This document shows positions 8,104 to 32,465 of a stretch of DNA of 32,465 nt, one piece after another (position 1 is the stretch's first letter; each line of letters begins with the position of its first letter). The stretch is from NCBI GenBank assembly GCA_030673105.1, contig DAOVJS010000008.1:1-32465 (forward strand). Reading direction: 5' to 3'. A program made the position numbers and the translations under genes. Origin of the DNA: Spirochaetota bacterium (lineage in GTDB: Bacteria; Spirochaetota; B62-G9; DRHN01). The notes below the pieces were generated by a model, which saw nothing but the letters and a program-made list of their open reading frames with translations, had not been told where the DNA came from and did no database searches.

Positions 8104-8151
8104 TTGACAAACGCTCACTTAGACACCATATTAATACCATATTGGAACCAT
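8104..8151 (+). promoter_or_regulatory. Putative sigma70-like promoter plus 11-bp-phased ACCAT repeats upstream of the TA operon
   Basis: TTGACA 8104-8109, 17-nt spacer, CATATT 8127-8132; ACCAT at 8125, 8136 and 8147. Confidence 0.5.
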
Positions 8152-8170
8152 GAAAAATATAGAGGTAGTT

Positions 8171-8413
8171 ATGGCAACTATAACAGTAAAAAATATCCCG
8201 GACCAGGAATATAATATGCTGAAAAAGCTGGCGGCTGCACACCATAGGAGCATAAATAGGGAAATTATTTATCTTATTAATAAGGCCACAGGGAGTAACA
8301 GGATTGATCCAACAGAATATATGCTAATTGCCCGAAAATTAAGAGAAAAAACCAGAAACCATGTTATTTCTGATATAGAAATTTCTAATGCCAGAAATGA
8401 AGGTAGATTATGA
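8171..8413 (+). CDS. FitA/VapB-like ribbon-helix-helix antitoxin
   Basis: MATITVKNIPDQEYNMLKKLAAAHHRSINREIIYLINKA; RBS upstream of ATG 8171; 4-nt ATGA overlap with the toxin. Confidence 0.8.
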   Translation: MATITVKNIPDQEYNMLKKLAAAHHRSINREIIYLINKATGSNRIDPTEYMLIARKLREKTRNHVISDIEISNARNEGRL

Positions 8414-8817
8414 TTGTTGTTGATACAAATATAATAAGCTATTTCTATCTTACTTCAGAATATTCTAAATTAGCAGAACAGTTATATATAAAAGAGTCGA
8501 CCTGGTCGGCACCACTCTTATGGCGCAGTGAGCTCAGAAATGTTCTCACCTTATATATCAGGAAGGAACTAATCACATTAAATGATGCTGCTGAAATTTT
8601 TGAAGCAGCAGAAGATTTATTAATAAATAATGAATTTGAAATAAATTCAATTCACGTATTAACGATAGCTCAAGCCAGCGGCTGTCCTGCGTATGATTGT
8701 GAGTTTGTAAGCTTAGCTCAAGATTTAAATGTTCAACTTGTCACAATGGATAAGAAAATATTAGATAATTTTCCAGACACTGCATTATCAATACCGGAAT
8801 TTATTAAGAAAATATAG
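8410..8817 (+). CDS. PIN-domain toxin (VapC/FitB-like)
   Basis: IVVDTNIISYF, WRSELRNVL, YDCEFVSLAQDLNVQLVTMDKKIL carry the conserved acidic residues. Confidence 0.88.
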   Translation: MIVVDTNIISYFYLTSEYSKLAEQLYIKESTWSAPLLWRSELRNVLTLYIRKELITLNDAAEIFEAAEDLLINNEFEINSIHVLTIAQASGCPAYDCEFVSLAQDLNVQLVTMDKKILDNFPDTALSIPEFIKKI

Positions 8818-26401: not shown

Positions 26402-29400
26402 TCACCGCTCTATCCTGTTTATTTGTCTTAACCTAAAGATCAATATCTGTAAAAAACCTTCAATAAGATCATACTGGTTCCACATGAGATCGGTTAAAGT
26501 GCGCTGGTTTATTTCAAGTACCACTGAATCACAGGAAGCCCGGGCGGATGCTTCTCTCTTCCGGGAATCCAGGGCGGAAAGCTCACCGAGAATCTGGTTT
26601 TTCCCGACCGTTTGTACCAGCTTATTGTTACTCTCGACGTTGAACCGGCCCTCAATAACCAGATACAGCCGCGAACTTCTTTCGCTTTTTATAAAGAGGG
26701 TATGCCCCTTTTTTACTTTTAGCCGTTTTTCTCTCTCGGCCACTTCTGTCAGAATAGTAACCGGAAGTTTATGGAATACCGGCTGTGATTTTAAAGAAAG
26801 GAATTTTTTAAGCAGCCCCGGTTCATCATTCAGGTCTGTCGTGATTGTGTTACCGGCCGACTCTGCCTGGCAGCCGGGCATTAAACATTCTTTCTTTTTT
26901 AAAGCATCTCTTATCCGAAGACAAAGCACGGAAATAACAGCCCTGCCGGCATCCAGATTGCTTTTCATAAATTCAATCAGGGCCTTCTGTTCGATATTGA
27001 AGAGCTGTGTGGCGGTAATTCCTGTTATTGAGGCGGAGCGAGGTTCCGGGCTTAAAGCGGCAAGTTCACCGAAGAAACTTCCCCTCCCGATTTCCGCCAG
27101 CACTGTATCACCGTCATGCACTTTGACACGCCCGGCTGCTATTATATACATGGAGGTCCCCGTCTCCCCTTTTGTTATTATCCGCCGGCCTTCAGAATAA
27201 TTGAATTCCTCTGTTATTGGAGCCAGGCCTGCAAGTTTTTCATCCGGTATTTCCGAGAAAAGTTCCGCCTTTCGCAATATCTTCACGGTTTTAACCAGGT
27301 TTTGGGCCCTGCTGTCCCTGTTTAAATACCTGACGCAGGTTTCCAGCCAGCTGTTTTTCCAATGTCCCTGATTAATACTTCCCAGCAGTTCACTTCTGTC
27401 AGGCAGCCGTAGATTTCTGTAGTTCTTTTCAAGCAGTTTTATTTTTCTATCAATGGAAAAATCCTCAATAATCGGGAAAACGAGAGGTTTATATTTCTTG
27501 CTGATCAGCGTATCAGCCAGTTCAAGAGCAAATGCCCGTTTTTCAGCTGATCTGGAATTAAGGTTGTTTAATGCAACAATAATTTCTTCGGAAAAGTATA
27601 TAAAGCTGAGGATAATAAAGATGCGCTCGACTGATTTTTCAACCTCGTGTCTCAGACCGTCAGCGAGGAGGTTGTCGGATTCCCGGATAAGGACCTTTAT
27701 TGCCGAGAATATTTTAAAACAGTATTCTCTTTCGGACTCAAGAAGTCCCTGCAGCATTCCGATATCATAATGCTGTGCTTTATAGCCGCAGGATTGCAGA
27801 GCGTAGAGAAGATCCGCCCGTAAAGCAATATCTTCTTCCTCCAGTTTCGCGCAGAGAAGATACTTATTACTTTCTCTGGCCTGATTTTTATATATCCTGG
27901 TAATACATGCCTTCTTGAATATGTCATTTTCATCTAAATCATTATAAACTGCTTCCAGTTTCCCTGTTATTTCCTTATCTGTCCCGGATAAAGCCTGAAC
28001 AGATGATGTTTCCAATCCCGGCCGGTTCATGACCTTAATAAGAGTGTCCAGGTGAACAGGAACCATATCGGGAGAAAGGGAATTAACAGTTAGTTTCTGA
28101 ATTTCACTTTCTTTATCATTCAGCAGTAATGAGGTATCCCGGATAAACTCCTTATCGGTCAACCCGGGTATGATAAATGCGGCCGAAAATCTTTTTTCCA
28201 CTGCTTCTGAAACTGTCCATTCATGAAGCATCTCCTTCAGGGGAACCACATCCTCATTTTCCGGAAAATACCGTAAAAGAGACAGTATTGCTTCATCACG
28301 CAGCCCGGTATTGCTGCTGTTTAGCAGGCCGGTCAGCAATCGGAATGCTTCCTCTTCTTTTGTCGCCCCTATGGCTTCCATCAGCCCGGGAATCATTCCG
28401 GTATTTTTTCTTTGATTAAAGTGTTTCAACAATTCAGGCAGCAGCACGGGGTCCTGCTCCTGGATCAGCATGGAACAGACTTCCGCCTGTACAAGCGGTG
28501 AACTGTTATTGAGCAGAAGTATTTTATCCCCGGTATTTAAAGTGCAGTTGTTATTGCCCAGAATTGTCAGGCATGCTTTAACCCTCAGGGGGTTGTCACT
28601 TTTCAGTTCATCTTTCAGATAATTTATGTCATTTTTCGACAGGGTAATTTCTCTGCCTTTCAGGCCCATTGTCCTGAGAGCCTCTGCCAGGGATTTTCGG
28701 TATCCCCCGCTTATTCTTAATATGCTGAAAATCCAGATAAAAATTATGAAAAAGAGCAGCAGGTAGACAATCACCGGAGGAAGTACCATGTAGACAAATA
28801 TCAGCAGTAAAAAGAGACCGGCAATACCACCGGCTCCCTGGCCGATTACAGTTTCCGTAAAATTCTGGAGTCTGTCCCGAATATTATCTTCAAAGGGCTG
28901 GAACAGGGTAAAATATGCCGGAACATACATGGAATTGATAAAAACTCTTTCCAGGAATTTGGTTATAATTATGACAATAAAGATCGAGCTCAGGGAAGGA
29001 TTAAACGCTGAAAGAAGAATCGCGGATACAGCACCCAGTCCGATCAAGGCCGGACCCGCAAGCAGACCGCCTCGTATGCCTGTAGCTGTTGTCCAGCGTC
29101 CATAAACTACCGTCCGCATAAACAGGTTCCCGATCCCGACAGCTGACCAGAATACTCCCAGAAAGGAGGCGAGTTCCTGCCCGGGGGTCAGGAGGGATTG
29201 GCTTAAATCGTAAAAGGAGAGATCCACAAAATAATAGACAAGATATCCCAGGCCGACCATCAGGAAAATATTTCTGAGATAATTCTCCTTAATAAAACCG
29301 GATAATGGAATACGGGAAGATTCATCAATAGATGATATATTTTTTTTCCTGTCATCGAACAGACGGTGCAGGTTTAAAAGGATCAGGAGGGAAAAAACAT

Positions 29401-29953
29401 GCCCGCCCACCGATACTGTTAGAAGCAGAGGAATTTCAATGTGCCGAACAAGGAGGGGGATAAGGGCCCCTGCCGCGATATATGCGATTACCTGACCGCT
29501 TCCTATCAGCCCGAACAGCCGTTTAGCCTGGCGGATGTTATACAGCCGGTTGGCTGTCGTCCAGAATACAAGGCCGGAAAGTATGATTTCCGCGTCCACC
29601 CATACCAGCAGGATAAAGGTCAGGATACGGAGGCCGGGGGAAACATAAAACAGTGATAATAACAGAAGAGGCACGCCTGTTAGGAGGAGAAGGATCATAA
29701 TAGATACAAGCTTATGAGACAGCCTTTTCTCCAACCGTATAAGCAGTATGCCGATCACCGGAACTGTCAGCGCCGATGCAATATATACCAGAGGCAGCAG
29801 CTTTGCCTCAAAGTTAATAAGGAATAGTGTGTTTGCCGTTGTTCCCGTAAAGACCTGGCTTGCGCCGATAAAAAAGGATTGAAGAAGGCTGAGCAGGACC
29901 AGTTTTTGTTCTCCCTGCTCAAGATGAAGCAATCCCCGCAGGATCTCCCTCAT
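26402..29953 (-). CDS. Npt1/2-like (MFS-type) transporter fused to HEAT-like repeats and two cyclic-nucleotide-binding domains
   Basis: About 12 TM N-terminus with KRLFGLIGSGQ; helical repeat middle; cNMP domains GTSMYIIAAGRVKV...GRGSFFGELAALSPEPRSASI and SSRLYLVIEGRFNV...ILGELSALDSRKREASA. Confidence 0.85.
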   Translation of the reverse strand: MREILRGLLHLEQGEQKLVLLSLLQSFFIGASQVFTGTTANTLFLINFEAKLLPLVYIASALTVPVIGILLIRLEKRLSHKLVSIMILLLLTGVPLLLLSLFYVSPGLRILTFILLVWVDAEIILSGLVFWTTANRLYNIRQAKRLFGLIGSGQVIAYIAAGALIPLLVRHIEIPLLLTVSVGGHVFSLLILLNLHRLFDDRKKNISSIDESSRIPLSGFIKENYLRNIFLMVGLGYLVYYFVDLSFYDLSQSLLTPGQELASFLGVFWSAVGIGNLFMRTVVYGRWTTATGIRGGLLAGPALIGLGAVSAILLSAFNPSLSSIFIVIIITKFLERVFINSMYVPAYFTLFQPFEDNIRDRLQNFTETVIGQGAGGIAGLFLLLIFVYMVLPPVIVYLLLFFIIFIWIFSILRISGGYRKSLAEALRTMGLKGREITLSKNDINYLKDELKSDNPLRVKACLTILGNNNCTLNTGDKILLLNNSSPLVQAEVCSMLIQEQDPVLLPELLKHFNQRKNTGMIPGLMEAIGATKEEEAFRLLTGLLNSSNTGLRDEAILSLLRYFPENEDVVPLKEMLHEWTVSEAVEKRFSAAFIIPGLTDKEFIRDTSLLLNDKESEIQKLTVNSLSPDMVPVHLDTLIKVMNRPGLETSSVQALSGTDKEITGKLEAVYNDLDENDIFKKACITRIYKNQARESNKYLLCAKLEEEDIALRADLLYALQSCGYKAQHYDIGMLQGLLESEREYCFKIFSAIKVLIRESDNLLADGLRHEVEKSVERIFIILSFIYFSEEIIVALNNLNSRSAEKRAFALELADTLISKKYKPLVFPIIEDFSIDRKIKLLEKNYRNLRLPDRSELLGSINQGHWKNSWLETCVRYLNRDSRAQNLVKTVKILRKAELFSEIPDEKLAGLAPITEEFNYSEGRRIITKGETGTSMYIIAAGRVKVHDGDTVLAEIGRGSFFGELAALSPEPRSASITGITATQLFNIEQKALIEFMKSNLDAGRAVISVLCLRIRDALKKKECLMPGCQAESAGNTITTDLNDEPGLLKKFLSLKSQPVFHKLPVTILTEVAEREKRLKVKKGHTLFIKSERSSRLYLVIEGRFNVESNNKLVQTVGKNQILGELSALDSRKREASARASCDSVVLEINQRTLTDLMWNQYDLIEGFLQILIFRLRQINRIER

Positions 29954-30069: not shown

Positions 30070-30108
30070 GATTAGGATATCCAATTAAAACGACCGGGGA
30101 TTAAACAT

Positions 30109-30870
30109 ATGGCTGTTGCGCAAAACCAATCCCGACCAAAAGCGGCAAAGGGCAAAAAGAGTAAAGGCAAACTTAAAGGAATTAAGGAGAAGATAACAAA
30201 AGTATCTAAAAAAGCAGCATTAAAGAATGTAAAGACTGCAAGAACTACAAAGACAGGAAAAGGAGCCAGAGTAAAAGCCGGCCATGTGAAGAAAACAGGC
30301 AGGCAAACACCTGTATCCGGGGTCAAGAAATCTGCTGGCGGTAAAGCGGTAATCCTAAAGAAAAAAACAACAGCAGTGAAGAAAAAAGCAGCTCCGAAAA
30401 AAACTCCTGCCAAAAAAAGGGGAGTCGTCATAAAAAGTACTAAAAGCACTGTTAAGCCTCCGTTCAGAGCGTACAGCGGGACGAAACCGTACATTTTTGT
30501 AAGCTATGCCCACAATGATATGAAAGCCGTTTTCGCTATTATCAACAAGCTCAACTACAGCGGTTACCGCTTCTGGTACGATGAAGGATTGGAGCCCGGG
30601 GAGGAATGGCCTGAGATAGTTGGCAGGAAGATCATCAAATGCGGCCAGTTTCTCGTGTTCATGAGCCCTTTCGCGGTGAAGTCTAGGAACATCAGGAACG
30701 AAATCAACCTGGCTTTCAGTGAAAACAAGAATATACTGGTCATATATCTCGATAATACACGCATGTCAAGCGGATTGAAACTTCAGCTCGGATCCGTTCA
30801 CTTTGTAAATAAACATGACCTGAAAGACGAAGAATTCTTTAGAAAACTGCGTTCGGCTCTCAGAAAATAG
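30109..30870 (+). CDS. TIR-domain protein with N-terminal histone-H1-like Lys/Ala-rich tail
   Basis: First ~110 aa Lys/Ala/Thr rich (KKKAAPKKTPAKKRG); TIR: YIFVSYAHNDMKAVFAIINKLNYSGYRFWYDEGLEPGEEWPEIVGRKI...FMSPFAVKSRNIRNEINLAF. Confidence 0.87.
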   Translation: MAVAQNQSRPKAAKGKKSKGKLKGIKEKITKVSKKAALKNVKTARTTKTGKGARVKAGHVKKTGRQTPVSGVKKSAGGKAVILKKKTTAVKKKAAPKKTPAKKRGVVIKSTKSTVKPPFRAYSGTKPYIFVSYAHNDMKAVFAIINKLNYSGYRFWYDEGLEPGEEWPEIVGRKIIKCGQFLVFMSPFAVKSRNIRNEINLAFSENKNILVIYLDNTRMSSGLKLQLGSVHFVNKHDLKDEEFFRKLRSALRK

Positions 30871-30895: not shown

Positions 30896-32465
30896 ATGAA
30901 AAAACAGCCGGAAGAAAATATACTTGATATTGAATCCTGCCTGTCACAGGGCAGGATTTTCAATGCATACAACCTGGCCAGCACAGCACGAAAGACTTTT
31001 CCCGATAATGTGAGAATAGCACAGTTATATGCTCTCTCCCTCGCACGGCTGGGCTCAACAGAAAAAGCAAAGAACTGCCTTGAAGATCTTTACAACAGGG
31101 GCCATCACGATTCTGAGACCGCAGGTATTCTGGGCAGGGTTTACAAAGATGTTCTGAAAAAGAGCGGAGATATCAAATACGCTTATTTGTCGAGAGACAC
31201 CTACCTGAGGTCTTTCGAGCGCTTGAAAGAGTACTATCTCGGGATCAATGCCGCGACTATGTCATATATCCTCGGAGAGAGAGAAAAAGCTGAGAAAATT
31301 GCGCGGCAGACCATCGATATTATCGATCGTCAGAAGGAAAAAGATTACTGGTGTTTAGCCTCACTCGGAGAGGCTTACTTGATCCTCAATGATCTCAGCG
31401 CATCGATCCGATTTTATAAAAAAGCCCGTGAGGAGGCGCATGGTAATTACGGGGACCTAAACAGCACTTATCAGCAGATCTGCTTTATAGAAAAGTATGC
31501 CCGGGTACCGGTTGAGCTTTTGGCCATTTTCAAACCCCCCGGCATCATTACCTTTTCAGGGCACATGATAGACCGCGCTGATCGAAAAGTACCGAGATTT
31601 CCAGATTTTGCAGCTGGGTCCGTAAAGAAAGAGATAGCAATCGTTCTTGATGAGCTGGATGCCGGGATAGGCTATTGCTCTGCCGCGTGCGGCGCGGATA
31701 TACTGTTTATTGAGGCAATGATCGAGCGGGGTGCCGAGGTGAATGTTTACCTGCCGTTCTGTGCCGGGGATTTCCTGAAGACGAGCGTTTCGTACGCGGG
31801 CATAGAGTGGGAGGACAGATTTTTCGCGATCCTTGAAAAGATCTCCGTAAAATACATAACAGAAGAAGGATATTTTGCGAATGACTCACTATTTTCTTTT
31901 TTGAACTGCGTGATCATGGGAATGAGTATCATCCGTGCTCGCCTCCTTCTTACAGAACCTGAGCTTCTTGTGGTTTTAGGCTCTGCAGCAAAGCATCCGA
32001 AACAGGGAAGCACCAGCGAACTATTCAGCCGATGGCCGCACAAAGAAAAAATCCGGATAATCGATCCAACCGGACTCAATCCTCCGGCCGCGGGCTCAGG
32101 AAAGCATAAGGAAAAAGCAAAGTCTGCAGAGTTCCCCGGTGCGGGTATTCCAACAGGGGTCATCCATTCTATGCAGTGCATCCTTTTCGCGGAAATAATT
32201 GGGCCCGGAAAAGCCGCAGAAGAGCGCACGCCCTATTTTATGCACGACATACTTAAAGCGGTTTCGGAACGTTTAAAGTATCTTGATGGAAAGCCAAAGA
32301 TATTTTCCTTATGGGGAGATATCATGCATGCCGTTTTTGACGGAGCAAAGGACGCGCTTGAGTTTACATCGATGCTGATGGATGTTATTTCGGGCACAAA
32401 AAACATAAATATCCGCGCGGCCCTGCACGCGGGCCCGGTATTTATCGGTGCAGATCCGATTACAG
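30896..32465 (+). CDS. TPR/TRAFs-binding-like (DUF4071-type) plus SLOG-like domain plus class III nucleotide cyclase-like protein, truncated by window edge
   Basis: Open frame from ATG 30896 to the end with no stop (absent from the ORF track); GIITFSGHMIDRADRKVPRFP...GYCSAACGADILFIEAMIERGAEVNVYLPF; C-terminal ILFAEIIGPGKA...KIFSLWGDIMHAVFDGAKDALEF...IRAALHAGPVFIG. Confidence 0.8.
   Translation, partial: MKKQPEENILDIESCLSQGRIFNAYNLASTARKTFPDNVRIAQLYALSLARLGSTEKAKNCLEDLYNRGHHDSETAGILGRVYKDVLKKSGDIKYAYLSRDTYLRSFERLKEYYLGINAATMSYILGEREKAEKIARQTIDIIDRQKEKDYWCLASLGEAYLILNDLSASIRFYKKAREEAHGNYGDLNSTYQQICFIEKYARVPVELLAIFKPPGIITFSGHMIDRADRKVPRFPDFAAGSVKKEIAIVLDELDAGIGYCSAACGADILFIEAMIERGAEVNVYLPFCAGDFLKTSVSYAGIEWEDRFFAILEKISVKYITEEGYFANDSLFSFLNCVIMGMSIIRARLLLTEPELLVVLGSAAKHPKQGSTSELFSRWPHKEKIRIIDPTGLNPPAAGSGKHKEKAKSAEFPGAGIPTGVIHSMQCILFAEIIGPGKAAEERTPYFMHDILKAVSERLKYLDGKPKIFSLWGDIMHAVFDGAKDALEFTSMLMDVISGTKNINIRAALHAGPVFIGADPIT

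Follow-up and report, generated by a model that had tools for sequence, protein, structure and literature searches.

The window, by which we mean the whole stretch of 32,465 nucleotides analysed here, codes for a TIR protein with a long histone H1-like basic tail, and directly beside it for a protein carrying TPR-S, putative Rossmann-like and class III cyclase-like domains. Both the fusion and its linkage to such a partner recur in other uncultured Spirochaetota. We tentatively propose, with slightly less than even confidence, that the two genes form a TIR-based nucleotide-signalling module in which the tail would anchor the TIR protein to nucleic acid and this protein would cleave NAD+ for its partner. 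The TIR gene comprises the following features.

30109-30870, + strand: tailed TIR open reading frame, 253 aa, ATG start
30096..30100, + strand: Shine-Dalgarno-like GGGGA read from the sequence, 8 nt 5′ of the ATG
30109..30453, + strand: H1-like basic tail, residues 1-115, assigned by composition and predicted to be disordered
30454..30867, + strand: TIR domain, residues 116-253 (Pfam TIR_2 at residues 129-247, E=3.7e-16)
30700..30702, + strand: codon of E198, the Glu of SRNIRNE and candidate catalytic Glu of the TIR domain
30072-30494, - strand: antisense open reading frame, a shadow of the Lys/Ala/Thr codons

The tail is made up of K (30%), A (13%), V, T and G (10% each), with 34% K+R against 1% D+E, a net charge of +38 and no aromatic residue. 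AlphaFold modelled it at a pLDDT of 50-66 and without secondary structure. It is therefore long, K/A/T/P-rich, poor in acidic and aromatic residues and probably disordered, as expected of an H1-like tail. Pfam assigned it to no family, a PDB search with the tail alone was uninformative, returning no match, and neither search revealed homology to linker histones, Hc1, HupB or any other known DNA-binding family; judged by its sequence, the resemblance to H1 is one of composition and not of homology. Bacterial H1-like tails such as those of HupB, AlgP, Hc1 and mycobacterial TopA are likewise Lys/Ala/Pro/Thr-rich and disordered, whereas here such a tail is carried by a TIR domain. Since the H1-like tail of mycobacterial HupB is indispensable for nucleoid association (PMC5676037), we infer by analogy of composition that the tail may bind DNA, although a basic disordered segment could alternatively bind RNA, polyphosphate, membrane or an acidic partner.

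The TIR domain scored 60.2 bits against TIR_2 (Pfam cut-off 28) and was modelled with a pLDDT >90 across most of its length. Its best PDB matches in Foldseek were the TIR domains of SARM1 and SPARTA, which are NADases. It shares with them the fold and the conserved Glu, but has a disordered basic tail in place of their SAM/ARM or APAZ domains. The SPARTA TIR is also switched on by nucleic acid, via its Argonaute partner. A Glu on the helix following the strand that ends in (M/I)SP is a hallmark of TIR NADases; it is present as E198 and kept in 84/86 TIR relatives, its equivalence to SARM1 E642 being drawn from motif position rather than from residue-level structural superposition. These relatives were partly chosen by their WYDE motif, so that conservation at W156-E159 is biased, while E198 is unaffected. 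Based on the predicted fold and this Glu, the protein is a probable NAD-cleaving TIR. According to Pfam and the predicted structure, it consists of tail and TIR alone, with no cyclic-nucleotide-binding domain. The Lys/Ala/Thr-rich tail running directly into a TIR domain and the Glu retained in SRNIRNE, both described in a first-pass annotation of this DNA, were confirmed.

Given that the tail is of low complexity and AAA-rich in the window, a mis-called start or a composition-driven read-through with a plain TIR protein as the true product was considered; it is very improbable and largely refuted by the following evidence. No in-frame ATG, GTG or TTG occurs between codons 90 and 138 of the window gene, so that an internal start would either keep some of the tail or truncate the first TIR strand. 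An internal start at the TIR domain was ruled out, as there is no suitable in-frame start and the tail is kept in 5/5 members. Homologues that lack the tail and share an internal start, which the first-pass annotation had named as evidence against the fusion, were looked for and not found. AGGAG precedes the start codon of the tail in two relatives, and SD-like motifs are found there in several members. The antisense open reading frame was rejected as a real gene, because codon use and GC3 fit the sense strand, whose frame enters the TIR domain. The five fusion genomes span a locus GC of 0.42 to 0.61, and the tail of the high-GC relative is rebuilt with 26% Arg and 17% Lys (GC3 0.86), indicating that basicity is kept although the codons change; this speaks against mere low-complexity DNA. 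Together, these results confirm that the fusion is neither a start-codon nor a composition artefact.

The same fusion was found in 3/5 other sampled genomes of the family (G003, G004 and G005, representing three genera), the matched region being 52-57% identical. The remaining two, G001 and G002, have no TIR gene and no full-length partner. A genome scan with the whole protein gave no hits, probably owing to the low-complexity tail, which supplied half of the patterns used, and a tail-only genome search was uninformative, leaving even the known tails of G003 and G005 unrecovered. Relatives were recovered by scanning 84,980 species genomes with a TIR-only alignment, which added a fourth fusion, in Spirochaetes bacterium RBG_16_67_19. 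As to whether homologues keep the tail and the Glu, which the first-pass annotation had suggested checking, the tail is kept in these four relatives and the Glu in nearly all TIR relatives. The five tails measure 115 (window), 175, 200, 223 and 243 residues, with K+R fractions of 0.31-0.43 and D+E fractions of 0-0.01. The five TIR domains form a single clade (support 100/99), so that the tail requires just one gain. An acid-free basic N-terminus of any length was found in none of the ~76 other TIR relatives from the scan of Bacteria and Archaea, and among 30 TIR_2 loci from 393 Spirochaetota genomes the tail was present in three loci of this family and absent from the other 27. Masked or gapped stretches in the source leave runs of X in the translated TIR gene of G004 (L005) and in the translated cyclase gene of RBG_16_67_19 (L026), neither of which is fully readable. 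A phage origin is unsupported, as no TIR homologue was found in the viral contig collection. In the samples searched, the tailed TIR is therefore limited to a few uncultured Spirochaetota. According to the first-pass annotation, the fusion is not known as a characterised system, and our search of largely open-access literature found no publication on such a tail/TIR fusion.

The partner gene and its domains, together with a divergent neighbour of the TIR gene, lie as follows.

30896..32465, + strand: partner gene, running off the contig end
30968-31261, + strand: TPR-S domain of the partner (Pfam TPR-S 1.9e-17, MAP3K_TRAF_bd 1.9e-9)
about 31523-32080, + strand: putative Rossmann-like domain of the partner, by homology to the L006, L008 and L026 partners
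from about 32156, + strand: degenerate class III cyclase-like domain of the partner, by homology to the same three
26402-29953, - strand: divergent 1183-aa gene, product with a transporter-like N-terminus, HEAT repeats and two cNMP-binding domains

In 4/4 members with enough contig, the fusion adjoins a partner gene that shares its strand and is separated from it by 4-25 bp; G005, whose contig stops at the TIR gene, was left out of this count. The partner lies directly upstream of the TIR gene in G003, G004 and RBG_16_67_19 (gaps again of 4-25 bp), whereas the window has the inverted order, with the partner 25 bp downstream. Strong TPR-S matches in the phylum sample were confined to this family. 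The structure predicted for the relatives' partner includes a Rossmann-like alpha/beta domain, to which Foldseek gave no identity, the TPR array dominating the matches. The cyclases of G003 and G004 retain the Asn/Arg pair as well as both metal Asp residues; the latter two are also visible in the cyclase of RBG_16_67_19, the remainder of which is masked.

In the window, Glu replaces the first metal Asp of the cyclase-like domain (LFAEIIG). The last ~158 bases of the contig (32308-32465) match the end of contig C199 (L134 5085-5242, - strand) with few mismatches, and the overlap shows 97% identity over 74 aa, so that the partner gene of the window very probably carries on in C199. The sequence of this overlap suggests that C199 carries the rest of this very gene and not part of a close paralogue. 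In C199, the transition-state Arg of the cyclase is replaced by Cys (VNRAAC), and the cyclase is followed by a cNMP-binding domain (7.7e-11) and a SpoIIE phosphatase domain (2.1e-48). The window partner is thus probably a pseudo-cyclase followed by cNMP-binding and SpoIIE-phosphatase domains. The inverted gene order and the dead-looking cyclase of the window indicate that cyclase output is not universal, a point against our main reading.

With this partner next door, the TIR protein is more likely to work within a two-component signalling unit than as a lone tethered NADase. The interpretation put forward in the first-pass annotation is therefore plausible and incomplete: a real, conserved fusion with a near-invariant Glu and an NADase-like fold stood, while the adjacent TPR-S/cyclase partner had been missed. 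According to our proposal, the disordered tail would hold the TIR enzyme on nucleic acid, either the nucleoid or foreign DNA or RNA. Upon a trigger, the TIR domain would cleave NAD+ via E198 and yield an NAD-derived signal, which the TPR-S and Rossmann-like part of the partner is predicted to sense, unless it binds the TIR protein directly. In the relatives, output would proceed via a class III nucleotide cyclase that appears intact; the window would probably use the pseudo-cyclase and the ensuing cNMP-binding and SpoIIE-type phosphatase domains instead. We consider rather doubtful a more specific version of this mechanism, in which the tail of a DNA-tethered TIR NADase would itself be the nucleic-acid sensor and the NAD-derived signal would feed a relay through the TPR-S-gated cyclase (in the window, the phosphatase), making up a bacterial DNA-sensing pathway with a cyclic-nucleotide amplifier at its end.

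TPR-S genes adjoin TIR genes elsewhere, for instance on a plasmid of Vibrio harveyi and on Agrobacterium pTiCFBP4996, where macro-domain and DarT genes lie close by, indicating that the pairing itself is already of a known kind. Compared to these TPR-S/TIR conflict modules (PF20308 TPR-S, PF13281 MAP3K_TRAF_bd), the spirochaete loci combine an H1-like tail on the TIR protein with Rossmann-like and cyclase domains on the TPR-S protein, and it is the tail and the cyclase output that are new. We take such modules to be prokaryotic counterparts of parts of the ASK signalosome, and a 2020 paper reportedly dealt with TPR-S and ASK-signalosome origins. The comparison with the ASK signalosome draws on Pfam names, general knowledge and a short remark in PMC8195603. 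A Caballeronia plasmid protein, WP_165106814 (L136 5185-6951), has a similar layout of TPR-S, weakly conserved middle and cyclase-like C-terminus, but no TIR gene is annotated within about 5 kb of it. Its gene is preceded by a probable lipoprotein gene and may belong to a related system with another partner. Like Thoeris (ThsA/ThsB), the spirochaete pair possibly combines a TIR signal maker with a separate sensor/effector, and the TIR domain weakly matches ThsB_TIR. Unlike in Thoeris, the TIR protein bears a basic tail and its partner is of the TPR-S/Rossmann-like/cyclase type; no ThsA model matched next door, where neither a ThsA-type (SIR2/SLOG) nor another described Thoeris effector was found.

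G003 and G004 share several flanking genes (identities of 54% for one, 62% for another that codes for a small protein of 174 aa, and 45% for a third), pointing to a partly conserved chromosomal region with no obvious mobile island. This synteny, in which the pair differs from a mobile defence island, counts against our main reading. In G004, the region divergent from the TIR/cyclase pair (L008 10700-11632) holds an ECF sigma factor gene and, behind it, a 98-aa open reading frame without Pfam match. The divergent gene of the window (26402-29953), whose product weakly matches TLC ATP/ADP translocases at its N-terminus and may be a cyclic-nucleotide-responsive transporter, was dropped as a part of the module, since neither G003 nor G004 has a counterpart of it next to the pair. 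The window also contains, at 8150-8817, a couple of small genes (87 and 135 aa) that overlap and resemble by sequence an antitoxin and a PIN-type toxin.

The conserved chromosomal neighbours in two genera, the sigma factor gene beside the pair in G004, the SpoIIE phosphatase domain in what appears to be the rest of the window partner and the lack of TIR homologues among viral contigs would all fit a stress or housekeeping role rather than phage defence, in which a nucleoid-tethered TIR protein would report DNA damage or NAD state to the cyclase/phosphatase relay. We regard this role, which is compatible with our main mechanism, as unlikely given the patchy presence of the pair within the family and the fact that TIR and TPR-S are mostly domains of conflict systems. 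It is quite unlikely that the TIR domain is a non-enzymatic scaffold whose contact with TPR-S recruits the partner to nucleic acid without any NAD chemistry. TIR domains often serve as assembly modules, and ASK-type TPR regions, to which the MAP3K5 matches point, are regulatory domains; however, the almost invariant Glu and a fold nearest to those of NADase TIRs argue for an enzyme.

Signalling could also run in the opposite direction, as in Pycsar (PycC/PycTIR), where a class III cyclase adjoins a TIR protein: a cyclic nucleotide made by the cyclase upon a trigger would turn on the tailed TIR, whose NADase activity would stop the cell. The adjacency of the two genes, with the cyclase first in three relatives, and a weak PADLOC PycC match of the G004 cyclase (E=4e-4; the only match among three partners tested) are consistent with this possibility. 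We nevertheless find it improbable, as the tailed TIR protein lacks the cNMP-binding domain expected of a Pycsar effector, and the window cyclase has lost its first metal Asp and apparently its transition-state Arg as well. Furthermore, the cyclase carries TPR-S and Rossmann-like domains, and to our knowledge TPR-S is not a described part of Pycsar. Signalling from the TIR protein to its partner is preferred because the former has no ligand-binding domain whereas the latter has TPR-S and Rossmann-like domains.

Altogether, these observations suggest that a small uncultured lineage of spirochaetes harbours a signalling enzyme of the immune type, tethered to nucleic acid (DNA or RNA) and previously undescribed. 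If so, a simple histone-like tail could take the place of a folded sensor in localising or switching TIR enzymes, and the product of a TIR domain would be wired to a cyclase or a phosphatase through an ASK-like TPR-S sensor. Such an arrangement would link the logic of bacterial NAD-based immunity with cyclic-nucleotide signalling, and would be relevant to how the eukaryotic ASK signalosome arose.
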